Assembly: GCF_008973825.1 (NCBI RefSeq)
Contig: NZ_WCHR01000034.1
Location: forward strand, 1 to 64,000
DNA length: 64,000 nucleotides
Source: Gemmobacter serpentinus
GTDB taxonomy: Bacteria; Pseudomonadota; Alphaproteobacteria; Rhodobacterales; Rhodobacteraceae
Reading direction: 5' to 3'
The notes under the pieces are model-generated. The model made no database searches. It saw only the letters and a list, made by a program, of their open reading frames with translations, and was not told the origin of the DNA. Below, piece by piece: positions 32,141-49,388 of the stretch. Numbering within the stretch: the stretch's first letter is position 1; the number at the start of each line of letters is the position of its first letter. Position numbers and translations under genes: made by a program.

Positions 32141-33691
32141 TCAGACCAACCAGAGGTTCCAGCCGTCCATTCCGCCATCGAAGCTGATGAAAGCCACGGC
32201 CTTGCCGCTGCCCGATCCATCAGCATCGAAGTAAAGCGTATGGTTGGCGCTGCGATAGACCCAGTGATCGCTTGCATCCTTGGCGGTGTCTTGGGCCAGA
32301 TCGGCGATTGATACACGCCCGCTCTGCCCGGCATAGCCAAAGGCCGCTGCCGCAACCTCTATCCGGTCCTCGGATGCAGAAAAATCGGTGATCCGGTCAC
32401 CTTTTTCCGACAGGGCGGTGAAGACAAAGCGATCCGCCCCCGCGCCCCCTGTCAGGGTATCCGCACCGCCCCCCCCTGCCAGCGTGTCATTGCCCGCGCC
32501 ACCGTTCAGCAGATCGTTGCCGCCCTCACCGCGCAGCAGATCGTCGCCGGTGCCAGCCATCACCGTGTCATTGCCACCGCCCGCCAGAATTGTGTCATTG
32601 CCAGACGCTGGATCCAGCTCTTGCACAAAATCGTTACCCTCACCCGCGCGCAGATGATCGGCACCGGCCCCGCCATCGATCCGGTCATTTCCGGCATCGG
32701 TAAAGATCGTATCCTCGCCGCTGCCGCCATAGACGGTATCATTGCCCCGTCCGGTGGTGACCAGATCGTTCCCCTCTCCGCCATCGGCAAGCATGGTGCC
32801 GCTCAGCGTGGCAGTCAGGCTGTCATCGATTGTGTCATTGCCTGCACCGCCATACAGCGTGTCATTCCCCAGATAGGCCAGCAACAGGTCATTGCCGTCG
32901 CCCCCGAACAGCAGGTCATTGCCATTGCCGCCATCCAGATGGTCGTGATCGGCCCCGCCGCGCAGCGTGTCGTTGCCATAGCCCCCAAGCAGGGTGTCAT
33001 TGCCGTCGCCCCCAAGAACGGAATCGTCATTGGTGCCCGCGACCGCGCGGTCATAATAGTAATCATTGCCGATCCCCAGATCGACAATGCCCCGAAGCAC
33101 ACCGCGCGTCTCAACCCGGTCGTCACCTTCCCGCAGGTTGAAGTCACCCGTGATCGTGCCGTAATTCATGATGTTATCGACACCCGAGATGCCATAGACA
33201 GCAATCGCCCCCGAAATGCTGCCGCGGTTCTCCAGCTTCATCTCGCCCAGACCAAAGGGCCCATAGATGCCGTAATTCTCGCCCTTCATGGTGCCGGTAT
33301 TGGTGATCTGCGTGGTGCCGCCGTCCCGCACATAAGCCCAGACCGCCGCATTGGCCCCTTGGACATAACCCGCATTGTAAAGCGTGGTGTTCTGACCATC
33401 AATCACCACCCCATTGGAATGGGTATAGAGACCAAGACCGCCTGCCGTCACGACAGCACTGGCACCAAGAAAGATCTTGCCTGGCTCGGCCATGCCCAGA
33501 AGCTTGATGCCATCATCCTCACCATGGATCTGGCCATACACAGTGATGCTATGGGCACCCTCCCAGGAATTGATCCCCGTCGCAGCAGAGGAAGAAATGC
33601 TGACGCCAGCATCCACACGAATGCTGTCACTTCCAAACAGGAGATAGCCATCTCCCTCACTGTTCACACTTGTCGCGATAATCAGGGGCAT
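32141..33691 (-). CDS. Large RTX calcium-binding protein
   Basis: A 516-aa acidic protein. Residues about 1-200 have no RTX repeats and look like a beta-helix with repeated short hydrophobic and asparagine turns (VVIDGQNTTLYNAGYVQG, NRGSISGAIAVYG). About 215-425 hold a long run of RTX nonapeptides (GGDGNDTLLGGYGNDTLRG and similar), broken by a short insert near 300. The C-terminal 90 residues resemble the end module of type I secreted proteins (FSASEDRIEVAAAAFGYAG, NHTLYFDADGSGSGKA). There is no signal peptide or obvious catalytic domain. The start at 33691 has only a weak ribosome site. The AT-rich region to its right probably holds its promoter. Confidence 0.88.
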   Translation of the reverse strand: MPLIIATSVNSEGDGYLLFGSDSIRVDAGVSISSSAATGINSWEGAHSITVYGQIHGEDDGIKLLGMAEPGKIFLGASAVVTAGGLGLYTHSNGVVIDGQNTTLYNAGYVQGANAAVWAYVRDGGTTQITNTGTMKGENYGIYGPFGLGEMKLENRGSISGAIAVYGISGVDNIMNYGTITGDFNLREGDDRVETRGVLRGIVDLGIGNDYYYDRAVAGTNDDSVLGGDGNDTLLGGYGNDTLRGGADHDHLDGGNGNDLLFGGDGNDLLLAYLGNDTLYGGAGNDTIDDSLTATLSGTMLADGGEGNDLVTTGRGNDTVYGGSGEDTIFTDAGNDRIDGGAGADHLRAGEGNDFVQELDPASGNDTILAGGGNDTVMAGTGDDLLRGEGGNDLLNGGAGNDTLAGGGGADTLTGGAGADRFVFTALSEKGDRITDFSASEDRIEVAAAAFGYAGQSGRVSIADLAQDTAKDASDHWVYRSANHTLYFDADGSGSGKAVAFISFDGGMDGWNLWLV

Positions 33692-33920
33692 GATCCGGGG
33701 TTTCCAGCCATATTGTTGAAGACATATAAACAATTGAAAAATAACGCATTTATGAAAATTTGTCACGTTCTTTTCCAAACCATGGCAAAACTGTGACCGC
33801 GCAAAGGGACAGGGAACTGTCCCGCCCCCGGCAGGCCAGGAAGGAACGCCCCGCCCCCCAGAGCGATTGCGCGCAGGGGCGCTTGGCTGTATCCGGTTTG
33901 AAACAATTGACGGAGGACGC

Positions 33921-34850
33921 ATGAGCCGCGCATTCGTATTCCCCGGCCAGGGGGCACAGACCATTGGCATGGGCCGCGCATTGGCCGAAAGCTATCCCGC
34001 CGCGAAAGCGGTGTTCGACGAGGTGGATGATGCCCTGGGCGAGAAGCTCTCGACCCTGATCTGGGAAGGCGAGATCGCGGATCTGACGCTGACGCAAAAC
34101 GCCCAGCCTGCACTGATGGCGACCTCCATCGCCGCCCTGCGCGCGCTGGAAAGCGAAGGCATCACCCTCGACAACGCGGCGTTTGTCGCGGGTCACAGCC
34201 TTGGCGAATATTCGGCGCTTTGTGCGGCGGGCTCGATCACGCTGTCGGATACCGCGCGGCTGCTGCGCATCCGTGGCCAGGCCATGCAAGAGGCGGTGCC
34301 GGTCGGCGTGGGTGCGATGGCGGCCCTTCTGGGCCTTGATTTCGAGACCGCGACCGAAGTCGCGCAGGAGGCAGCCCAGGGCGAGGTCTGTCAGGCCGCC
34401 AATGACAATGACCCGGCGCAGGTCGTGGTCTCCGGTCACAAGGCCGCCGTTGAGCGCGCGGTGGAGATCGCCAAGGCCAAGGGTGCCAAGCGCGCGCTGC
34501 TGCTGCCGGTCTCTGCCCCCTTCCATTGCGCGCTGATGCAGCCCGCAGCCCATGTCATGGCCGAGGCCCTGGCTGCGGTGAATATCGAGAACCCTGCCGT
34601 GCCGGTCGTGGTCAATGTCCGCGCCGAGGCGGTGATGGAGGCGGATCGCATTCGCGATCTGCTGGTCGCGCAGGTAACCGGATCGGTGCGCTGGCGCGAA
34701 AGCGTGCTCTGGATGGAGCAGGCAGGCGTCACCGATTTCTGGGAAATCGGCGCAGGCAAGGCGCTGTCGGGCATGATCAAGCGCATCGCGAAAGGCGTGG
34801 AAACCCGCGCCATCGGCACGCCCGAAGACGTGCAGGCCGCCAAGGCCTGA
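33921..34850 (+). CDS. fabD: Malonyl-CoA:ACP transacylase
   Basis: Loads malonyl groups onto acyl carrier protein. The 309-aa protein has GQGAQTIGMG near the N terminus, the nucleophile Ser93 in AGHSLGEYSAL, and His202 in SAPFHCALM. The start MSRAFVFPGQ at 33921 follows GGAGGACGC; an upstream in-frame ATG lies in non-coding DNA. First of the plus-strand fab genes, with a palindromic terminator after it. Confidence 0.96.
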   Translation: MSRAFVFPGQGAQTIGMGRALAESYPAAKAVFDEVDDALGEKLSTLIWEGEIADLTLTQNAQPALMATSIAALRALESEGITLDNAAFVAGHSLGEYSALCAAGSITLSDTARLLRIRGQAMQEAVPVGVGAMAALLGLDFETATEVAQEAAQGEVCQAANDNDPAQVVVSGHKAAVERAVEIAKAKGAKRALLLPVSAPFHCALMQPAAHVMAEALAAVNIENPAVPVVVNVRAEAVMEADRIRDLLVAQVTGSVRWRESVLWMEQAGVTDFWEIGAGKALSGMIKRIAKGVETRAIGTPEDVQAAKA

Positions 34851-37646: not shown

Positions 37647-39893
37647 CTAGCCCGAGGAATTTTCCATGTCTGCCATGGACTTGCGGATGAAGCGATTGCT
37701 GCCCCGCGTCAGCACCCAGCGGCCAATACGCTGCGCAAGTGCCGGTCGCCCGCGCGCCAATGCACGTTTGAACAATTCCTTCTGATAGCGCGAAAAGGTC
37801 TTTCGCGCCCGCAGCAGGCGGTAGAACTCTGCCTCGGTCAGCGTGCCGTTCAGCGCATCCACCGTGATGGTGGACAAGATACCCATCTGTTGCAGGCTGG
37901 AGCCCAGCCGATGCCCCATCAGCGGCGCGCGCAGCTTCAGCACATTGTCATTCTGGCAGCGCGCGACATGGCCCGCATCCAGCGGCTCATAGGGATCATA
38001 GAGCAGGATCACCTTGCCCGCCGCCTTCGATACCTCGGCCGCATCGCCATAGGGGCCGCTGAAATCGCTGTCCCAGGCGGTCTGATAGCGGGTTTCCCAA
38101 GGCACAAGGGTCTTGTCCAGCGTGGTTTGCGGGCTGATCGCCACCACATCCGCGCCGGGACAGGCGGGCGAAAACGCCATCGCCGCATACCCGCCCATCG
38201 AGGCGCCGTAGAACACCACGCGCTTGTAGCGGTCGAAGAAATCCGAAGTCGCCAGATCATCGAACTGGTCCCAGACCCATGGGTCACGATACCAGGTCCA
38301 GCCATTGGCCATCACCCCCAGCATGTCCCAGCCCTGTTTCTCGATGAAGCCATAGCCCCAAGGGCGCCGCTCTTCGCGCTTGGTCATCGCGATATCGAGA
38401 TTGTCGAAGGTCACGACCAGCGTGTCCGAGCCGCGCGGCACATAGAGGAAGGAATGCATCGGATTGTCGCGCACCCAGCCATCTGGCCCCGCCAGCATCA
38501 CCGCAAGTTCCGACCAGTCGATCGGCTCGGCGGCCTCGGTTGCGCGTTCCATCGCGGCGGAGGCGGCCTCAGCCGTTGGCCGGAACAGCGCACGGGTGAT
38601 CGGCACGCCGTCCAATGTGCGCGACGACAATGTCTCGCAGGCCCCATATTTGTTCAGGAAGGGATAGGCCCCCGATCCTTTGCGGATATCCAGGAACATC
38701 CGCGTGCCTTCGCGCAGACAGCGCTCCAGGACCGGCGTGAGATGCGCAATCTTGCTGACATCACCAAAGCCCGACAGGTTCGCGATCACGTCACAGCCGG
38801 TCAGCTGTCCGGGGCTGGCAATGTGATGGATGCGGTCTTCCTCGACCCCGTTTTCCATCAGGAAGGCGCGGTAAGGCTCCACCCAACGCGAGGGTTTGCT
38901 CGCCCAGTTGCCGCGCCCGTCCATGTCGATCAGCTGCACCTCGCAGCCGGTTTGCAGCGCGACAGTCAAGACCAGCCCCTGCGCATTGCCCCCCAGATCG
39001 GCCAGAACCTTCACCGGCGCGTCGCCAATATGATCCAGCAACATCGCCTCGAACTGGTTGCGCCCGCGCCCGCGGATCGGGGTCGCCCCGGCCAGGATGC
39101 CATGTTCGCGGCAGGCCCGGTCGAACCAGCTGCCCGGCGGCGGCAGACCGTTGTGACGAATGCCGATCTCGCGCTTGTTCGAGGCCCAGACATGCAAGGC
39201 GGTGGTGTCTTTCGTGACCGCCATATCCACCACACCCGCCTTGCGCAGAAACTGCATCCGGTTCGGGAAGGTCACCGGGTAAAAGGCCGCCAGCGGCTGC
39301 ACCTTGTCCATCAACCCGAACTGGCGGACGAAATGGGTGATCAGCAAGGGCCCCCAGACACCCCAGGGCTGCTGACTGACATGAATGGGCGTGCCCGCAT
39401 CGCGCGCGGCCTCCAGCTCTTCCACCTGTTCGGGCTTGAGGAAGGGCGGGATCACGAAAGGATCGGAGGTGAAATCGATCAGCGCCGCCAGAACCTCGCT
39501 CTCGGCGGGCAGACCCAGCACGGCATTATTGACCCTGCCCCGGCCCGGCAGTTCGAACCCCATCACATAATCGCTGTCATAATCCATCACCCGCTGGCAA
39601 TAGACATCGGTATCGACCCAGATCATGCCGGGACAGGCCCGGATCATATGCAGGCGGAACAGATCAGCAAACAGCGCATAGCTGTCTTTCTGTTCGTATT
39701 TCAGGAAGTTGTCGGTATCGATGATCTCGCGCCCGTTGCGCAGGATCACGCCTTCGGGCACGTTTGGCACATCGTCATAATGGAAGAGCGTGATCTTCTG
39801 TCCCTTGTCGACAAAGGATTTCAGACAAAGCTGTTCCATCCAGCTCAGCGCGCCGCCGATCCAAAGGGTGCCCACCTCGCGCTGTCGTGCCAT
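37647..39893 (-). CDS. Three-domain protein: glycosyltransferase, methyltransferase-like, alpha/beta-hydrolase-like
   Basis: A 748-aa protein with three apparent parts. Residues about 1-255 look like a DXD-type glycosyltransferase (GALSWMEQLCLKSFVDKG, WVDTDVYCQ with D94 and D96), reminiscent of families with a sugar-binding DXD region. About 290-440 resembles a SAM-dependent methyltransferase (VLADLGGNAQG, then VQLIDMDG). About 480-700 is an alpha/beta-hydrolase-like domain with elbow FYGASMGGYAAM (S565), an acidic residue in LLYDPYEPLD (D633 or D639) and H661 in LMGHRLG. The C-terminal domain is homologous to the protein at 43956-44903. It has no signal peptide and is divergent from a glycosyltransferase gene. 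ATGs at 39893 and 39905 are both possible starts; GGGCGAG favours 39893. The biological role is unknown, perhaps surface glycan assembly. Confidence 0.8.
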   Translation of the reverse strand: MARQREVGTLWIGGALSWMEQLCLKSFVDKGQKITLFHYDDVPNVPEGVILRNGREIIDTDNFLKYEQKDSYALFADLFRLHMIRACPGMIWVDTDVYCQRVMDYDSDYVMGFELPGRGRVNNAVLGLPAESEVLAALIDFTSDPFVIPPFLKPEQVEELEAARDAGTPIHVSQQPWGVWGPLLITHFVRQFGLMDKVQPLAAFYPVTFPNRMQFLRKAGVVDMAVTKDTTALHVWASNKREIGIRHNGLPPPGSWFDRACREHGILAGATPIRGRGRNQFEAMLLDHIGDAPVKVLADLGGNAQGLVLTVALQTGCEVQLIDMDGRGNWASKPSRWVEPYRAFLMENGVEEDRIHHIASPGQLTGCDVIANLSGFGDVSKIAHLTPVLERCLREGTRMFLDIRKGSGAYPFLNKYGACETLSSRTLDGVPITRALFRPTAEAASAAMERATEAAEPIDWSELAVMLAGPDGWVRDNPMHSFLYVPRGSDTLVVTFDNLDIAMTKREERRPWGYGFIEKQGWDMLGVMANGWTWYRDPWVWDQFDDLATSDFFDRYKRVVFYGASMGGYAAMAFSPACPGADVVAISPQTTLDKTLVPWETRYQTAWDSDFSGPYGDAAEVSKAAGKVILLYDPYEPLDAGHVARCQNDNVLKLRAPLMGHRLGSSLQQMGILSTITVDALNGTLTEAEFYRLLRARKTFSRYQKELFKRALARGRPALAQRIGRWVLTRGSNRFIRKSMADMENSSG

Positions 39894-40170
39894 TTTCTCG
39901 CCCATCACTGCCAACGGGCTGCCGCACCCGCCTTGTTACCGTCCGATTGCTTCGGATTTCGAAACATTCTGGCGAAGAAAGCCTGACTTGCCAATGTGAA
40001 TGCAGCGAAAACCCGATCCAATTGCCTGGAATGGGGTGAAATGATGCGACAAATACACAGAAACTCGATTGCATTCAGACCTTTGCCGCATTGTTGCCAT
40101 TGTGATAACGATACCCCTAGGCCAAGAGACCAGTGTGTCGGGTATCAGTTCACGTCAGCCAGAGGCGGCC

Positions 40171-42504
40171 ATGCCGGAAGATCGAAAATCTGCGAAGCAG
40201 CGCCAAAATGGCGCGGCACCCGCCGTCGCGACGGAGGCGCGCGTCTTGCTGCGTGTCCTTGGCGGGTGCCAGCTTGATCTGCCGGGCCTGCCACGGTTGC
40301 TGGATGCCGTGCGCCATGGGGACCGGCTTTATGCCTGTTTCGGCAATGGCAGCGATGCGGCTGCCTTGGCTCCCGATGGCGGGCCGGGATGCGCGGTGCC
40401 ACAGGAATTGCGCGCGGTCTCGGGCTCTTTGCTGGCGATCGCCCGCCTGACGGATGCAGCCGCCCCGGCCCGGCTGGCCCTGACGGGTGGCACGGTGTTG
40501 GATCTTGAGGCACCGCAGGCCGAGACCGACCTGTTTCGCGGCCTGAACACCATTCTTGCCTTCCGTCATGCCGAGACACCCGCGCAGCTTGCCGAAGGTC
40601 TGCGCTATCACTGGCGCCATCATGGACTTCAGGCGGCGCTGATCGTCAGCCGCGCGGATGAAGATCTGACGGAATTTGCCGCAGCCCTCTCGCATCGGCT
40701 GACCGGCACCGGGCTGACTGTCGTGCTGCTGCGCAGCCCTTTGCCGCTTGGCCAGGCCGATGCAGGCCCATTGACCCATCCCTTCCTTGCCCCCGATGCG
40801 CCGGGCAAGGACCGAATGGAACAGCCCGCGCCCGATCCCTGGCTCAGCCCGCTGGCCGAAGGCCTGATCCACGAGGCGCTGAAATGGCGCTTTCTGTCCG
40901 AGGCGCGTGCGGTGCTGACGCTCGATGCCTGCGATATCCTCGCACCAAGGGCCGAGGGCGCGCCGTCAGCCTTTGATCTTTGCGTGCAGGCCGAACAGGG
41001 CACGATCCTGCTGGTCGGGCATCGCATCTATCCCTGGCGCGTCCGCCCCGACCACGAGGCCCTGTTCGGCGATCACATCTGCCGCCAGTTCGACCATCGG
41101 CGCGGCATCGCCCGCTGGGGCGTAGCCCCCGGCAAGGCCGGGCTGGAAAACACCTGGCGATTGGTGCGCATATCCTATGCACGGCCCGATACCACCGGCA
41201 CCGCGCATTTCTACCGCGCCATGGCGCTGCTTGTGCCCGGTCGCAATGCGGGCGATCTTGCCCCCAAATCGGCACTGATCGAAGACCCTTCGCTGATCGC
41301 GCTGTCGCAGGATGTCTTCAACCACCGCCCCGTGCGCGCCCCCGTCTCGCGCAAGCGGCAGGCCCCGACACCCGCAATCGACGCCGGGCGCACGGCCATC
41401 GTGACGACGATGAAGAATGAGGGCCCCTTCATTCTGGAATGGCTGGCCTATCACCGCGCCATCGGAGTCGATGATTTCCTCGTCTATACAAACGATTGCA
41501 CCGATGGCACCGACACGATGCTGGAACTGTTGACCCGCAAGGGCATCGTTCAGCACCGGATCAACCCCTATGTGCCGGGCGGCGCGTTGAAGCCGCAACA
41601 TGCCGCGCTTCAGGCCGCTGAATCCGAGCCCGTCATGCAGAATTGCGGCTGGGGCATCTGCATGGATGTCGATGAATTCATCGATATCAAGATCGGCGAC
41701 GGCACCCTGAAGGCCCTCTATGAGCGGATGGGCGAGGCAAATATGATCTCGCTGACCTGGCGGCTGTTCGGCAATGCAGAGGTGCATGGCTATGAAGACC
41801 GCTTCATCATCGACCAGTTCACCCGCTGCGCGCCGGAGCTGATCCGCAAGCCGCATCAGGCCTGGGGCTTCAAGACCCTGTTCCGCAACATCGACATCTA
41901 CAAGAAGCTGGGGGTCCACCGCCCCAAGGGCTTGCGTCCCGACCTGTGGGATCAGGTGCGCTGGTTGAACGGATCGGGTCGCCCGATGCCGAAAGAGGCC
42001 TATCGCAATGCCTGGCGTTCCACCGCCGACACCTATGGCTATGACTGGGTGCAGCTGAACCACTATGCGGTGCGCAGCGCCGAAAGTTTCCTGGTAAAGC
42101 GCGACCGTGGCCGGGTGAACCATGTCGATCGCGATCAGGGGCTGAACTACTGGTTCCGCATGAACCACAATATCGAAGCCGATGCCTCGATCCGCCGGAT
42201 GATTCCCGCAGCCAGGGCCGAATTCGACCGGATGATGGCCGACCCCGAGATCCGTGCCGCCCACGAATATTCCGTGGCCTGTCACCGCGAAAAGATCACC
42301 GCTTTGATGCAAACCGAAAACTATCAGGCGTTTTTTGCCGAACTGACCGGCAATCGGATGGAAAAACTCTGCCGGATGCAGCACCATTTCGGCTCTGCCG
42401 TGTTTCTGGCGGGGCCGGGGGTTATCCCGACCGATCTGCATGAGCGTGACTTGCCCGAGAATTTCTTTTTCACCGTCGACCATGTCGGCGAAGCCGAGCA
42501 CTGA
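40171..42504 (+). CDS. Glycosyltransferase family 2-like protein with a large N-terminal domain
   Basis: A 777-aa protein in two parts. The first 400 residues match no family I recognise; they hold LRVLGGCQLDLPGLPRLL, an RGLNTILAFRH segment and LVGHRIYPWRVRPDHEALF. From about 408 the sequence is a glycosyltransferase of the Glyco_tranf_2_4/GT92-like type: TAIVTTMKNEGPFILEWLA, VYTNDCTDGT and the metal site CMDVDEF (D499, D501). A C-terminal part with NHYAVRSAESFLVKRDRGR follows. The second half is a paralogue of the next gene, 8 bases downstream. I took the ATG at 40171, after AGAGG. The open frame continues upstream with only TTG or GTG starts. Confidence 0.82.
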   Translation: MPEDRKSAKQRQNGAAPAVATEARVLLRVLGGCQLDLPGLPRLLDAVRHGDRLYACFGNGSDAAALAPDGGPGCAVPQELRAVSGSLLAIARLTDAAAPARLALTGGTVLDLEAPQAETDLFRGLNTILAFRHAETPAQLAEGLRYHWRHHGLQAALIVSRADEDLTEFAAALSHRLTGTGLTVVLLRSPLPLGQADAGPLTHPFLAPDAPGKDRMEQPAPDPWLSPLAEGLIHEALKWRFLSEARAVLTLDACDILAPRAEGAPSAFDLCVQAEQGTILLVGHRIYPWRVRPDHEALFGDHICRQFDHRRGIARWGVAPGKAGLENTWRLVRISYARPDTTGTAHFYRAMALLVPGRNAGDLAPKSALIEDPSLIALSQDVFNHRPVRAPVSRKRQAPTPAIDAGRTAIVTTMKNEGPFILEWLAYHRAIGVDDFLVYTNDCTDGTDTMLELLTRKGIVQHRINPYVPGGALKPQHAALQAAESEPVMQNCGWGICMDVDEFIDIKIGDGTLKALYERMGEANMISLTWRLFGNAEVHGYEDRFIIDQFTRCAPELIRKPHQAWGFKTLFRNIDIYKKLGVHRPKGLRPDLWDQVRWLNGSGRPMPKEAYRNAWRSTADTYGYDWVQLNHYAVRSAESFLVKRDRGRVNHVDRDQGLNYWFRMNHNIEADASIRRMIPAARAEFDRMMADPEIRAAHEYSVACHREKITALMQTENYQAFFAELTGNRMEKLCRMQHHFGSAVFLAGPGVIPTDLHERDLPENFFFTVDHVGEAEH

Positions 42505-42512
42505 AACAGTCC

Positions 42513-43580
42513 ATGTCCCAGACCTATACGATCCTGACGACGATGAAGAACGAGGGCGCCTTCCTGCTGGAATGGTTCGCCCATCACAAGGCGCTTGGCT
42601 TTGATGAATTTGTCATCTGCACCAATGATTGCGAGGATACGACCGCCGAAATCGTGAAACGGTTGCAGAAGATGGGCCTCGCCCGGCTGCATCTGACCAA
42701 TTACCGTCCCGGTCAGTCGATCCAGCGCCGGGCGCTGCGGCAGGGGATGCGCTATGACGAGGTGCAGAAGGCCGACTGGATCTTTGTCTGTGACGCGGAT
42801 GAATTTCTGGCCTCGCATATCGGTGATGGATCGGTGCGGGCGCTGACCGCCGCCGCCTCGCCCGGAACCGAGGCGATCTGCGTGCCTTGGCGCCGCTTTG
42901 GCACCAATGGCCAAAAGGATTACCGCGAAGGCCCGATCACAAGGCAGTTTGTCATGGCCAATGCGACGCGGGGCGCAAAGGCACGGCCATTTGTGTTCCC
43001 CAAGACGCTGTTTCGCGGCGATATCCTGCCGCATGTCGAACGTCTGGGCGTGCATGTGCCGCTGCCGCGCCCCGATCTGGGGCACGAATTGCGGATCGAG
43101 GTGCCCGGTGGCAAGCCGGTCTTGCCGCCGCCGCAGCGTCTGCTGGTGCAGGCCGATTACAGCGCGGCGCAGGTGAACCATTACCAGTTGCGCTCGATGG
43201 ACAGCTTTCTGGTGAAATCGGCGCGCGGCAAGGTGAACCATGTCAATGACAAGATGGATTACCGCTATTGGTCCTATAATGACGCCAATGAGGAACGCTG
43301 CGACCTGATCCGGCGCTATGACCCGGAGGTGGAACGCTGGATGACAGAGCTGCTCTCGGACCGGCGGCTGAACACCCTGCACGAGCGCGCGGTGCGCTGG
43401 CACAAGGCCAAGGTGGCCGAGCTTCATGCCGCCCCCGCATTCACCGAGATGATCGCCTTGATCGAGGCGCATCGTGCCCGCATGGCCAGCGATCCGGTCG
43501 AAGAGATCGGCTATGGCGGCGATCTGGATGTGCCGGAAACCGCTGAGCCCGAACTGGATGTGAAGATCACCGCCGCCTGA
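42513..43580 (+). CDS. Glycosyltransferase family 2-like protein
   Basis: A 355-aa predicted glycosyltransferase. The N-terminal ILTTMKNEGAFLLEWFAHH and ICTNDCEDTT match the family that includes PF13704-like enzymes. The DXD-type metal site is FVCDADEF (D94, D96), and NHYQLRSMDSFLVKSARGK in the second half parallels the previous protein. It is therefore a paralogue of residues 408-777 of the upstream gene and probably co-transcribed with it. No membrane segment is seen, so it acts in the cytoplasm. Donor and acceptor sugars are unknown. Confidence 0.85.
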   Translation: MSQTYTILTTMKNEGAFLLEWFAHHKALGFDEFVICTNDCEDTTAEIVKRLQKMGLARLHLTNYRPGQSIQRRALRQGMRYDEVQKADWIFVCDADEFLASHIGDGSVRALTAAASPGTEAICVPWRRFGTNGQKDYREGPITRQFVMANATRGAKARPFVFPKTLFRGDILPHVERLGVHVPLPRPDLGHELRIEVPGGKPVLPPPQRLLVQADYSAAQVNHYQLRSMDSFLVKSARGKVNHVNDKMDYRYWSYNDANEERCDLIRRYDPEVERWMTELLSDRRLNTLHERAVRWHKAKVAELHAAPAFTEMIALIEAHRARMASDPVEEIGYGGDLDVPETAEPELDVKITAA

Positions 43581-43955
43581 GGTGGCACCGGCCCGTGCGG
43601 CCACGCCTTGCCCCTTCGCGCCAGTCACAAGCCACAGGGCATCAAGCGTGTGTCGCGGGCCGCTTCTCGGCGCTGTCAGCCCGTTTCCGACAGGGCCATT
43701 CCTGGCCCCCATGCATGAGCCACCATGCAGAGGCCGCCGAATGGGCCGACGAATGGGCTGCCCCCCCCTCAGATCCGGCGTAGCCTGACACCTGTCACTT
43801 GACGCGGGAATCGGCGTGGCGCGGCAGGTTGACTTGCGAAACAATCACGCCCGATTGTTTCAGCCCTGCCCCGTCGCTGCCCCCTTGTCTGCCCGCTTTC
43901 GACACGCGAGATTGGCACTTCTTTTCATATGTTCGTTTGCCTGCCGGGAATCACG
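43581..43955. other. Intergenic region without a supported gene
   Basis: This 375-base region separates the glycosyltransferase gene from the hydrolase-like gene. Short open frames here have no ribosome site or recognisable product. I see no tRNA, repeat or clear terminator; a short ATGGGCCGACGAATGGGC duplication lies near 43741. It probably holds the promoter of the next gene. Confidence 0.5.
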
Positions 43956-44903
43956 ATGTCGGAGACCGTCCAGACCGCTGCGCCGCCCTCGCGTTACGAC
44001 GCGTCGATGGCGGCTGACCACGCAAGCTGGCTTGCGCGGCTGGACGAGATCTGCGCCGATGAAGGCTATTTCGAGCCACTCGGCGCACGCCACCATGCCT
44101 TCTTCGCCGATGAAGGCCCGACGCTGATCGTGTCCTTCGAGACCGTCGAACAGGTGCGCGCCCGCAAGGACCAGATGCCCTTCGCGCTGTCGGTCGCCGC
44201 CCCGCGTGGCTGGTCGCAGCTCTGCATCCTGTCCGAGGGCGAAACCTGGTATCGCGACCCGGCGGTCTATCGCTATTTCGACCGGCTGGTCGATGATGCG
44301 TTTTTCGAGGATTTCGACCGCGTGCTGTTCTATGGCGCGGGGATGGGGGGCTATGCCGCCTGCGCCTTCTCGGTCTGTGCGCCGGGGGCCACGGTGCTGG
44401 CCGCGGCACCGCGCGCGACGCAAGACCCTGCCGTCGCCGGCTGGGATCGCCGCACGCTGGATGCCCGCCGCCTGAACTTCACCGATCGTTTCGGCTTTGC
44501 CCCCGATATGGTCGAGGGCACGGGCGAGGTCTTCATCCTGCACGACCCGCGCGACGTGATGGATGCGATGCACGCCGCCCTTTTCACCCGGCCCTTCGTG
44601 ACCCAGTTGCGCACGCCGTTCCTGGGTGCGCGCCCAGATCAGGCGCTGGACGCGATGGGTTTGCTGCCGGGCCTGCTGGCCGATGCGGCCGAAGGCCGTC
44701 TGAGCGCCACGCGCTTTGCCCGGCTGTGGCGCAGCCGCCGCAGCTTTGGTCCCTGGCTGCGCGCCATGCTGACCCATGTCGAGGCCCAGGGCAGCCTGCG
44801 CCGCGCGCTCGGCATCTGTCGCTCGGTCAATGCCCGGCTTCAGGCACCGCGCTTCCGCCGCCGCCAGACCGAAATTGAAGCGCAGCTTGGCGGCAAGGGC
44901 TGA
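43956..44903 (+). CDS. Stand-alone alpha/beta-hydrolase-like protein lacking the catalytic residues
   Basis: A 315-aa protein homologous to the C-terminal third of the 748-aa protein at 37647. Shared landmarks are ETWYRDPAVYRYFDRL, the elbow LFYGAGMGGYAACAFS and FILHDPRDVMDAMHAALF. At the elbow the nucleophile Ser is Gly129 (GAGMGG against GASMGG), and the His position is Ala225 (FLGARPD against LMGHRLG). The acidic position is kept. It therefore looks like a binding or scaffold form of the domain, not an enzyme. Relatives in databases may carry a phosphoadenosine phosphosulfate reductase label, for which I see no motif. The start at 43956 is tentative; ATG 43929 would add nine residues. Confidence 0.78.
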   Translation: MSETVQTAAPPSRYDASMAADHASWLARLDEICADEGYFEPLGARHHAFFADEGPTLIVSFETVEQVRARKDQMPFALSVAAPRGWSQLCILSEGETWYRDPAVYRYFDRLVDDAFFEDFDRVLFYGAGMGGYAACAFSVCAPGATVLAAAPRATQDPAVAGWDRRTLDARRLNFTDRFGFAPDMVEGTGEVFILHDPRDVMDAMHAALFTRPFVTQLRTPFLGARPDQALDAMGLLPGLLADAAEGRLSATRFARLWRSRRSFGPWLRAMLTHVEAQGSLRRALGICRSVNARLQAPRFRRRQTEIEAQLGGKG

Positions 44904-45833: not shown

Positions 45834-46877
45834 ATGACCCAAAGCCTCACGCTCCGCCGCCCCGATGACTGGCACCTGCATCTGCGCGATGGCGCAATGC
45901 TGCAAGGTGTGCTGCCGGAAACCGCCCGCCATTTCGCGCGCGCGATCATCATGCCCAATCTGGTGCCGCCGGTGGTGACCGGGGCGCAGGCAGCAGCTTA
46001 CCGCGACCGCATCCTTGCGGCCCTGCCCGAAGGCGCGCGATTCGAGCCGCTGATGGTGCTATACCTCACCGAAGACAGCGATCCGGCCGATATCCGCGCA
46101 GCCCATGCAAGCGGCCTCGTGAAATCGGTGAAGCTCTATCCGGCGGGGGCCACCACCAACAGCCAGTCCGGCGTGCGCAATTTCGACAAGGTGCGCCCGG
46201 TGCTGGAGGCGATGGCCGAAATCGGCCTGCCGCTTTGCGTGCATGGCGAGGTCACCGCCTCCGAGGTCGATATCTTTGACCGCGAGGCGGTGTTCATCGA
46301 CACCGTGCTGGACCCGCTGCGCCGGGCGACACCCGGCCTGCGCGTGGTGATGGAACATATCACCACATCACAAGGCGTGGATTATGCCCGCGCGGGCGGG
46401 CCCGATCTGGGCGCCACCATCACCACCCATCACCTGATCATCAACCGCAACCACATCCTCGCCGGGGGCATCAAGCCGCATTACTACTGCCTGCCGGTCG
46501 CCAAGCGCGAGACCCACCGTCAGGCCCTGCGCGCGGCGGCGACGAGCGGCGATGCCTGCTTCTTCCTTGGCACCGACAGCGCGCCGCATGTCGATGCGCT
46601 GAAGGAACATGCCTGCGGTTGCGCCGGTTGCTTCACCGCGACCAATACCATGTCCTGCCTTGCCCATGTCTTTGAAGAAATGGGCGCGCTGGACCGGCTG
46701 GAAGCCTTCACCTCCTTGAACGGCCCCGCCTTCTACCGCCTGCCGGTGAACGAGGCGACGATCCGGCTGGTCAAGCACGACGCCCCCCATGCCTACCCGG
46801 ACAAGATCTATACCGAGGCAGGCCCGGTCACCGTCTTCAATCCCGGCTTCCCGCTGCATTGGACGGTCGAGGCCTGA
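45834..46877 (+). CDS. pyrC: Dihydroorotase (class II)
   Basis: Forms dihydroorotate from carbamoyl aspartate in pyrimidine synthesis. The 347-aa protein has the metal motif [10 protein letters not shown] (H14, H16), [15 protein letters not shown] with the likely carbamylated lysine, LCVHGEV, and the metal Asp in FLGTDSAPH. The C-terminal [16 protein letters not shown] is typical of E. coli-type PyrC. It is followed by two palindromic elements and pyrE, 76 bases downstream. Confidence 0.96.
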
Positions 46878-46953: not shown

Positions 46954-47634
46954 ATGATCCCGACCTCGTTCCCGCCCAAGGAAGACATCGCCCGCCTCAC
47001 CGCCCGCGCCTTTCTGGAGATCGGCGCCGTCCATTTCAACGCGCGCGACCCATTCACGCTGGCCTCCGGCCTGCCCTCGCCGACCTATATCGACTGCCGC
47101 AAGCTGATCTCCTATCCGCGCATCCGCTCCACGCTGATGGATTTCATGGCGGTGACCATCATGCGCGAGGCAGGGTTCGAAGCCTTTGACAATATCGCGG
47201 GGGGGGAAACCGCAGGCATCCCCTTTGCGGCGCTGGTGGCCGAACGTCTGGCCCTGCCAATGAGCTATGTTCGCAAAAAGCCGAAAGGCTATGGCCGCAA
47301 TGCCCGCATCGAGGGCGCGATGTCCGAGGGCCAGCGCGTGCTGCTGGTCGAGGATCTGACCACCGATGGCGGATCGAAGCTGTCTTTCGTCGATGCGATC
47401 CGCGACACGGGTGCCACCTGCGGCTGGACGGCGGTGATCTTCTATTACGGCATCTTCAAAGAGACCGAGGCGCGCCTTGCCGATCATGGCGTCAAGCTGA
47501 TCCATCTCTGCACCTGGTGGGACATGCTGGCCGAAGCCCGCGCGCAAGGCAGCTTCGACGAAGAGACATTGGCGGGGGTTGAGGCCTTCCTGAACGACCC
47601 GCGCGGCTGGCAGGCCGCCCGCAGCAAGGCCTGA
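46954..47634 (+). CDS. pyrE: Orotate phosphoribosyltransferase
   Basis: Joins orotate and phosphoribosyl pyrophosphate to give orotidine monophosphate. The 226-aa protein has [18 protein letters not shown] near residue 40, [11 protein letters not shown] as the flexible-loop region, and the PRPP motif [14 protein letters not shown]. It lies downstream of pyrC, separated by two palindromes, and probably shares at least part of its transcript. Confidence 0.96.
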
Positions 47635-47891: not shown

Positions 47892-49388
47892 ATGAACGAG
47901 ATCACGGCGATGAAACCTGTCGGTTTGCCCGCCACAGCCGAAACCGAGGCGCTGCCGCATAACATCGAGGCCGAGCAGCAGCTTCTCGGCGCGATCCTGA
48001 CCAATAACGACATTTACGACCGTATCGCCTCGCTGGTGCGGTCCGAGCATTTCTTCGATCCCGTCCACCAGCGCATTTTCGAGATCGCGGCAGCGCGGAT
48101 CCAGAAGAACGCGCTGGCCTCGCCCGTCACGCTGAAGGCGTTTCTCGAAGACGACGCAGGTCTGCGTGAACTGGGCGGCCCGGCCTATCTGGTGCGTCTG
48201 GCGGGGGCCGCGATCAGCGCCTTTGCCGCCCGCGATTTCGCGCAGATGATCTATGATCTGGCGGTGCGGCGCGAGCTGATCCAGCTGGGCCGCGATATCT
48301 CGGCCAAGGCGGGCAAGGTCGAGGTGACATCCGAGCCGCGCGAGCAGATCACCGAGGCCGAACAGCGGCTTTACAAGCTGGGCGAACAGGGCGTGGCGGA
48401 GCGCGGCTTTCAATCCTTCCTGAAGGCTGTGACCGATGCGGTGAACAGCGCCAACGCTGCCTATCAGCGCGGCGGCGGGCTTGCCGGCACCTCAACCGGG
48501 TTGATCGATCTCGACAAGAAGATGGGCGGCTTGCACCCGTCCGACCTTATCATTCTGGCAGGGCGTCCCTCGATGGGGAAGACCTCGCTTGCCACCAACA
48601 TCGCCTTCAACATCGCCAAGGCCTATAAGCGCGGCATGACCCATGAGGGGCATGAGGGCGCGATCGAAGGCGGCGCTGTCGGCTTCTTCAGCCTCGAGAT
48701 GAGCGCAGAACAACTTGCCGCGCGGATTCTGTCGGAGGCGGCCGAGGTGCCATCCGAACAGATTCGCCGCGGTGACATGACCGAGACCGAGTTCCGCCGC
48801 TTTGTGGAGGCCGCGAAATCGCTGGAAAGCTGCCCGCTTTACATCGATGACACGCCCGCCTTGCCGATCAGCCAGGTCGCGGCCCGGGCGCGGCGGCTGA
48901 AGCGCACCCATGGCCTTGATGTGCTGATGGTGGACTATCTTCAGCTTCTGAAAGGCACCGGGCGCGGTGAAAGCAACCGGGTGCAAGAGGTGTCGGAAAT
49001 CACCCAAGGCCTGAAGGCCATCGCGAAAGAGCTGAACATCCCCGTCATCGCGCTGTCCCAGCTGAGCCGGACGGTGGAAAGCCGCGAAGACAAGCGCCCG
49101 CAACTGTCGGATCTTCGCGAATCCGGCTCGATCGAGCAGGACGCCGATGTGGTGATGTTCGTCTACCGCGATGAATATTACCACGAACGCCTGAAACCGC
49201 CGGAGGATGATCCGCGCTTTGCAGAGTGGCTCGACAAGGCCGAGCGCGTGCATGGCAAGGCCGAGGTGATCCTTGGCAAACAACGCCACGGCCCGATTGG
49301 CACGGTGGAGCTTTCGTTCGAGGGGCGCTTTACCCGCTTTGGCAATCTTGTGCAGCCTTGGCAGTCGGAACCGCGCGACGAGTATTGA
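47892..49388 (+). CDS. dnaB: Replicative DNA helicase
   Basis: Hexameric helicase that unwinds DNA at the replication fork. The 498-aa protein has the N-terminal helical domain ([19 protein letters not shown]), a linker and the RecA-like domain with Walker A GRPSMGKT (224-231), then [23 protein letters not shown] and [18 protein letters not shown]. An insert around residues 245-258 ([15 protein letters not shown]) follows Walker A. The 257-base region before it has no supported gene. Confidence 0.96.

Follow-up and report, generated by a model that had tools for sequence, protein, structure and literature searches.

A Rhodobacteraceae gene block of glycosyltransferases, a putative CsaC/Asp2-like glycan O-acetyltransferase domain and its inert paralogue

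We analysed a 64,000-nucleotide stretch of the 4.26-Mb genome of Gemmobacter serpentinus (contig NZ_WCHR01000034.1, positions 1 to 64,000; the window) and describe in it a block of four genes, at 37647–44903, that is probably a module, typical of Rhodobacteraceae, of cytosolic or soluble proteins that assemble and decorate a glycan. We report the genes, their folds in structure models, their synteny and conserved residues, a single group of inert domains and purifying selection. The four open frames were confirmed at their positions. Gene 1 (P0001; 37647–39914, minus strand, 755 amino acids) joins a GT32-like glycosyltransferase (GT) domain, a methyltransferase-like (MT) domain and an alpha/beta-hydrolase (ABH) domain that bears a catalytic triad and is O-acetyltransferase-like. 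Gene 2 (P0002; 40171–42504, plus strand, 777 amino acids) encodes an N-terminal beta-rich segment, a probable GT-A-like domain and a Glyco_tranf_2_4 (GT2_4) domain; gene 3 (P0003; 42513–43580, plus strand, 355 amino acids) is a stand-alone GT2/GT92-type GT, and gene 4 (P0004; 43929–44903, plus strand, 324 amino acids) is an ABH paralogue. The ABH domain of gene 1 is best read as a CsaC/Asp2-like glycan O-acetyltransferase, and gene 4 is, by its residues, a non-catalytic, retained pseudoenzyme. The four genes are kept as a block in relatives, often beside pyrC–pyrE–dnaB.

The ABH domain of gene 1 (37650–38534, minus strand, residues 461–755) has a GxSxG nucleophile elbow, GASMGG, and five residues, all encoded on the minus strand, that recur in its relatives: Ser572 (38199–38201), Gln596 (38127–38129), Asp646 (37977–37979), His649 (37968–37970) and His668 (37911–37913). 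A Foldseek search with the gene 1 model ranked 6oyc_B of the Gap123 complex first (E = 1.2e-6), and placed CsaC at ranks 3, 5, 15, 20 and 35. We take 6oyc chain B to be Gap2, and Gap2 to be the counterpart of Asp2. An earlier note on this DNA, made from the sequence alone, had called the domain hydrolase-like; the fold agrees with that name, and the function is better read as that of an O-acetyltransferase of the CsaC/Asp2 kind.

The residues point the same way. We gathered 150 distinct ABH domains of at least about 200 residues (2 from the window, 46 and 102 from the sets of 40 and 80 loci described below; shorter and identical domains were dropped). The serine and histidine of the triad are both present in 77 and both absent in 73, and no domain has only one of them. 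All 77 nucleophile-bearing domains have His668, Asp646 and a glutamine exactly at Ser + 24, and the spacing from Asp646 to position 649 is three residues in every case. The full Ser–Gln–Asp–His–His set is found in 75 of the 77, including gene 1, and the remaining two have Gln in place of His at Asp + 3. The published CsaC active site, as given in passages of PMC7501274, comprises S114, Q138 (+24), D198, H201 (+3) and H228; the same passages report that Q138A removes 96.8–98.0% of activity and exchange of H201 more than 70%.

Gene 4 is the paralogue that closes the block (35% identity to residues 498–755 of gene 1 over 258 aligned columns, E = 7e-49). The earlier note took it for a separate copy of the same domain; the kinship holds and the equivalence does not, as nucleophile and histidine are gone. 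Gly138 (44340–44342, plus strand) stands at the Ser572 position, in a GAGMGG motif that lacks GxSxG, Arg162 replaces Gln596, and Ala234 (44628–44630, plus strand) takes the place of His668; Asp212 and His215 remain. Across the 73 inert domains the glutamine position holds Gln in 43 and Arg in 26, and Asp646 and His649 persist in 72. In a tree of 149 ABH domains (one row shorter than 240 residues was dropped), built by a quick method without bootstrap and with an arbitrary root, a single branch (SH-aLRT 99) sets off all 72 inert rows and another (99) all 62 MT-fused rows; the 15 remaining triad-bearing rows occur at two positions, and the program warned of long branches outside the two groups and of some within the inert group. 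The ratio of non-synonymous to synonymous substitution rates (dN/dS; NG86, one pair, against Gemmobacter caeruleus) is 0.20 for gene 4, 0.30 for gene 1, 0.20 for gene 2, 0.29 for gene 3 and 0.12 for pyrC. It is because of this purifying selection that we regard gene 4, non-catalytic by its residues, as retained. Because the serine is present in all 12 remote ABH relatives read, we infer that inertness arose by loss and is not ancestral.

The proposal that the four genes are inherited together is supported by their neighbourhoods in relatives. The earlier note had named a lack of co-occurrence as its refuting outcome, and the survey did not give that outcome. We surveyed 121 genomes from the order, all listed in the same family (Rhodobacteraceae); 114 have relatives of gene 1 (any part, E ≤ 0.001) and 108 have relatives of gene 2, most listed matches spanning one domain. 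The MT–ABH part of gene 1 is present in 15 of the 121 genomes, and each of the 15 also has a two-domain gene 2 no more than 10 kb away on that contig; in all, 37 of the genomes have a two-domain gene 2. We then read two sets of loci, 40 hand-picked from this survey and 80 selected, from at least 559 relatives, for their similarity to gene 2; the two sets overlap in some regions, and fractions of loci are not frequencies in the family. Genes in the loci are simple open frames, and loci stop at 10 kb or at the contig end, so that absence there is no proof. Among the 80 loci, a separate GT2_4 gene is found in 65, GT32 in 64, a separate ABH gene in 63, MT–ABH in 55 and pyrC in 42, where it is always within 3 kb of an ABH gene (42 of 42). 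A co-directional GT2_4 gene lies just downstream in 59 and a divergent GT32/MT gene within 1.5 kb in 54; every module is present in 40, and the complete three-domain fusion in 39. The separate ABH genes of these loci lack Ser and His in 49 cases and have them in 3, and 11 of the 63 are unrated after the length and identity filter.

Gene 2 is present in Gemmobacter, Pseudorhodobacter, Thioclava, Pseudotabrizicola, Rhodobacter capsulatus and Litoreibacter, among others. Its homologues from two Gemmobacter records are 78% and 77% identical to it (best segment), and of the 10 other genomes of the genus, 8 have a close gene 3 orthologue (56–76% identity). Rhodobacter capsulatus (L129, L152) has the gene 2–3–4 form with pyrC adjacent and no gene 1 in the stretch read. 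In the window the recurrent neighbours, which we take to be pyrC (45834–46877, plus strand), pyrE (46954–47634) and dnaB (47892–49388), names that do not come from a family search, mark the syntenic site; pyrC is not part of the pathway.

As the earlier note held, three of the proteins appear to be GTs, one of them fused to MT and ABH domains. The three-domain layout of gene 1 agrees with its AlphaFold2 model (mean pLDDT 90.9, pTM 0.56). Its GT32-like domain (39060–39893, minus strand, residues 8–285) carries a conserved WxDTDxxC motif, of which W, D, D and C are invariant across 29 aligned domains and DTD is conserved; the family name GT32 is our own reading, the Pfam match to Gb3_synth being below threshold (E = 0.0035). 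Next to it lies an S-adenosylmethionine (SAM)-methyltransferase-like Rossmann domain (38541–39059, minus strand, residues 286–458), and Foldseek matches of the gene 1 model include KMT9, TrmK, YjhP and Trm11. Gene 1 may start at TTG 39914, from which its residues are numbered here; in the same frame follow ATGs at 39905 and 39893, of which the second is the more likely start. Gene 4 has a further ATG at 43956. Genes 1 and 2 diverge from a gap at 39915–40170. The arrangement is thus as first described, and the divergent promoter placed there is not borne out, because a scan of 39800–40250 returned a single weak sigma-70-like match, on the minus strand at 39966–39994.

Two GTs within the block are indeed paralogous: the C-terminal half of gene 2 and gene 3 share 34% identity over 325 columns (E = 2e-48). 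Both exceed the curated cut-offs for PF13704 (Glyco_tranf_2_4) and PF01697 (Glyco_transf_92), both have a DxD-type motif, and their GT2_4 domains are the only matches above the Pfam cut-off in the block; NCBIfam lists a family for none of the four proteins. The GT2/GT92-type domain of gene 2 (41386–42375, plus strand, about residues 406–735) has the motif DVDE. The 400 residues before it, first considered unplaceable, form in the gene 2 model (mean pLDDT 86.6, pTM 0.69) a beta-rich segment at about residues 24–112 and then an alpha/beta domain, the order of whose elements we read as resembling that of the C-terminal GT. Residues 110–400 (40498–41370, plus strand) are therefore, on model and fold search, probably a second GT-A fold. 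In Foldseek the gene 2 model matched K4CP best (2z86_D, E = 7.7e-9), with heparosan synthase 2 next (8vh8_B, E = 2.7e-8) and then LH3, LARGE1 and COLGALT1, all of them enzymes with more than one GT-type domain. The alignments, of about 550–740 columns including gaps, suggest that both halves of gene 2 take part. Superposition over the whole protein is poor (query TM-score 0.15–0.18, root-mean-square deviation 19–25 Å, identity 9–13%). The N-terminal domain has DxxD in place of DxD, and 27 of its 285 residues are invariant, whereas 114 of 335 are invariant in the C-terminal GT. A profile comparison of this N-terminal domain with the GT2_4 domain gave P = 0.0044; for its GT-like part the value is 0.0046, becomes 0.00047 when a stand-alone relative (L077) is included, and is 0.00031 for that relative by itself. 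The N-domain profile scores L077 at 65 bits and the GT2_4 profile at 0.9 bits, under the best shuffled control (5.3), and its Pfam E is 0.09.

Relatives rearrange these domains. Gene 1 may be split into GT32 and MT–ABH genes, and other fusions include GT32–GT2_4, GT32–GT2_4–ABH, ABH–GT2_4 and GT32–GT2_4–GT2_4. A Litoreibacter protein joins a weakly sulfotransferase-like N terminus (E = 0.0015, under the cut-off) to a triad-bearing ABH C terminus. A second form, in eight loci of the family (L070–L076 and L087), consists of a GT2_4 gene, a two-domain GT, another GT2_4 gene and an ABH gene without Ser and His, and adjoins genes of clusters that we take for pyrC and dnaB (the pyrC cluster in seven of eight). 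It includes a sulfotransferase-like gene in five of the eight loci and a methyltransferase-type gene in two (one of each was scanned with Pfam), which fits glycan decoration. The N terminus of its two-domain GT is an unplaced domain distinct from that of gene 2, a kinship between the two having been considered and rejected (P = 0.56 on comparing profiles); in the two of eight proteins scanned, these N-terminal 440–570 residues gave nothing over the Pfam cut-off except GT.

Some copies are plasmid-borne. The Phaeobacter inhibens P78 plasmid pP78_c (L090) has the same modules at a plasmid site: GT32-like, ABH and, as annotated, FkbM-type methyltransferase genes together, with a GT2_4 gene that has a weakly methyltransferase-like part and rhamnosyltransferase-type genes. 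On P. inhibens DSM 17395 plasmid pPGA1_262 a lone two-domain gene 2 orthologue (PGA1_RS19920; L089:8803–11076) stands amid unrelated genes. On plasmid p2 of Thioclava sp. GXIMD4216 a triad-bearing ABH relative (L091:7974–8906) is called phosphoadenosine phosphosulfate reductase in RefSeq, and two more ABH genes lie in the same stretch by a formylglycine-generating-enzyme gene and a sulfatase-like gene. A second Thioclava plasmid record bears the same reductase name on a member of the same family as the ABH domain. The one copy so named that was scanned had no Pfam match up to E = 0.01, and the name appears to be wrong for these ABH relatives.

We hypothesize that the block acts as follows; here we infer the transfer of glycosyl, methyl and acetyl groups, the substrates, the cytosolic place and the partner role of gene 4. 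Gene 2, a protein of two GT-A-like domains, and its single-domain relative gene 3 would transfer sugars, and a further sugar would come from the GT32-like domain of gene 1. The MT domain would methylate the chain, and the ABH domain would acetylate a sugar hydroxyl, with acetyl-CoA as donor and Ser572 carrying the acetyl group, in the manner of CsaC and Asp2. Gene 4, a non-catalytic relative of the acetyltransferase, would probably be a glycan-binding, scaffolding or regulatory partner. Consistent with this reading, none of the four proteins has a strongly hydrophobic segment. A broader and tentative proposal is that this is a Rhodobacteraceae-wide, pyrC-anchored decoration locus, in which recombined GT, methyl-, sulfo- and acetyl-transferase domains vary one surface glycan between lineages. 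As part of that same tentative proposal, an ancient inert sister of the acetyltransferase may now serve a constant purpose outside catalysis: to bind or measure the glycan, or to keep the enzymes together.

Several observations weigh against reading the block as a glycan-decoration module with a CsaC/Asp2-like acetyltransferase. The SAM-binding motifs of the MT domain are conserved in part only (Ala305–Asp306 in 18 of 18, Gly309 in 17 of 18 and loop-2 Asp330 in 11 of 18), and at E 0.001 no gene 1 match was found in 7, and no gene 2 match in 13, of the 121 genomes. The Foldseek list that contains CsaC also holds Ag85 acyltransferases, ordinary esterases and a chloramphenicol-metabolising esterase, and its output comes without residue ranges, so that coverage of residues 460–755 follows from match length and fold. 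ABH profiles searched against the sequences of solved structures gave no match to CsaC or Asp2 up to E = 10, the best match being another ABH protein (E = 0.024); because of this the link rests on fold and residue spacing, and our claim is that the domain works like CsaC/Asp2, not that it belongs to their family. Finally, six of ten remote ABH neighbours scanned (from seven of nine remote loci; L211 and L212 were left out) are metabolic or housekeeping proteins, one has no match and three are sugar-related: a GT4-type GT, a GH38 mannosidase and EarP. We therefore rejected the remote relatives as evidence of glycan context, and these neighbours lend no support to a glycan function shared across the wider ABH family.

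Searched across the class, the mixed ABH profile matches 7 of 240 genomes, three of them from the same family; across the phylum, the profile of triad-bearing domains matches 23 of 249, 13 of them from that family. Of 12 remote sequences, nine have Gln at Ser + 24 and the rest Val, Val and Arg; all 12 have DxxH. Three triad-bearing ABH genes stand in tandem by a DAHP synthase gene in another family of the class (L204:8277–10853), a remote one (L209:8706–9614) adjoins the gene for EarP, the elongation factor P rhamnosyltransferase, and another (L210, 8005–8874) has a GT2_4 relative about 6 kb off.

GtfA/B, Gly and Nss build an O-glycan on the serine-rich repeat (SRR) adhesin GspB. By analogy the GTs of our block could build an O-glycan on a cytosolic preprotein that the Asp2-like domain then acetylates, a reading that we hold to be unlikely but the most serious of the alternatives. 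It draws on the top fold match, Gap123, which comes from a streptococcal glycosylation system; on the protein-glycosylating enzymes LH3 and COLGALT1 among the matches of gene 2; and on the want of strongly hydrophobic segments (the highest mean over 19 residues in any of the four proteins is 1.56) and of any Wzx/Wzy-type gene among these four and seven scanned window neighbours. On the other side, no acceptor candidate recurs: RTX-type proteins, the sole kind tested, were found by repeat motif in 6 of 121 sources (the window, 40 loci and 80 loci). The RTX calcium-binding-repeat protein of the window (32141–33970, about 3.7 kb before the block) was accordingly dropped as the target, the six sources including the window itself and L049 and L097, which are the same region. 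RTX-type genes also occur between pyrC and pyrE in L049/L097, L074 and L095. As regards the accessory Sec system of Asp2, no SecA2/SecY2 or SRR adhesin genes were found among the block and the seven scanned neighbours, and neither Pfam nor NCBIfam lists the Asp2 family for the proteins scanned.

The lead of K4CP and heparosan synthase 2 in the gene 2 search raises another reading, somewhat less probable still, in which gene 2 is a bifunctional polymerase with two alternating GT-A sites and the block makes a complete polysaccharide that a system elsewhere in the genome exports. The earlier statement that the block has no Wzx/Wzy gene holds for the proteins scanned, and the companion statement that it has no polymerase can no longer be made, since gene 2 is a tandem-GT candidate. 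The poor superposition, the DxxD motif and low invariance of the N-terminal domain, and a profile link to the GT that is suggestive only (P from 0.0003 to 0.005) all count against a polymerase. It is more doubtful again that the triad-bearing ABH domain is an esterase (deacetylase) trimming acetyl or acyl groups from the glycan or a precursor. Its weak Pfam matches fall in esterase and hydrolase families and esterases rank among its Foldseek matches, but Gln stands at Ser + 24 in all 77 domains, where the aligned solved esterases 3fcx and 3i6y have Ile. That argument has its limit: the boundary is not sharp, for passages of the CsaC study describe CsaC itself hydrolysing the acetyl-enzyme when no acceptor is present (PMC7501274). 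Least credible by far is that the gene 4 group, lacking Ser and His, consists of decaying or redundant copies without function. Its members form one group of 72 rows (SH-aLRT 99) that retains Asp646 and His649 almost throughout (72 of 73), dN/dS for gene 4 against one close relative equals that for gene 2, and the inert domain is the sole ABH in the stretch read of all eight second-form loci. We prefer the reading as a glycan-assembly and decoration module.

The constituent domains belong, or probably belong, to known folds. In the open-access literature, outside which most subscription journals lie, we found no description of the block, its pyrC-linked site, the CsaC-type spacing in these domains or the inert group. 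The block is widespread in Rhodobacteraceae, its ABH proteins are misleadingly named in at least two database records, and it offers for study an ancient group of pseudoenzymes and, in gene 2, a candidate polymerase with tandem GTs. Rhodobacteraceae are abundant aquatic bacteria whose surface sugars affect attachment and the uptake of gene transfer agents. For Rhodobacter capsulatus, passages of PMC13420450 describe the capsule as the first target of its gene transfer agent. Were the decoration-locus proposal true, ABH glycan acetyltransferases would form a wide class recognisable by the CsaC-type Gln/His extension, and a question of the CsaC authors would be answered. In passages of their study the CsaC authors ask whether other proteins carrying this glutamine are transferases, and whether it marks a general route from esterase to transferase (PMC7501274); a predicted O-acetyltransferase with a CsaC-type triad bears on that question.

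Among known systems, CsaC, the capsule O-acetyltransferase of Neisseria meningitidis serogroup A (6yuo, 6yuq, 6yus and 6yuv), acts on a glycan, as we propose for the gene 1 ABH domain, and according to passages of PMC7501274 shares with it the ABH fold and an extended triad with Gln at Ser + 24 and His at Asp + 3 in the same spacing, the CsaC side being taken from published numbering, unaligned. In contrast to CsaC, the gene 1 domain shares its chain with GT32-like and MT domains and has an inert paralogue in the same block. Asp2/Gap2 of accessory Sec systems (6oyc) is likened to gene 1 by the best-ranked fold match of its model, and passages of PMC5578698 describe Asp2 as having a Ser–Asp–His triad and as O-acetylating N-acetylglucosamine. 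The tandem GT-A enzymes, namely the chondroitin polymerase K4CP, the heparosan synthase PmHS2, LARGE1, LH3 and COLGALT1, are the best fold matches of gene 2, whose N-terminal half, unlike theirs, has no DxD and sits behind a beta-rich segment.

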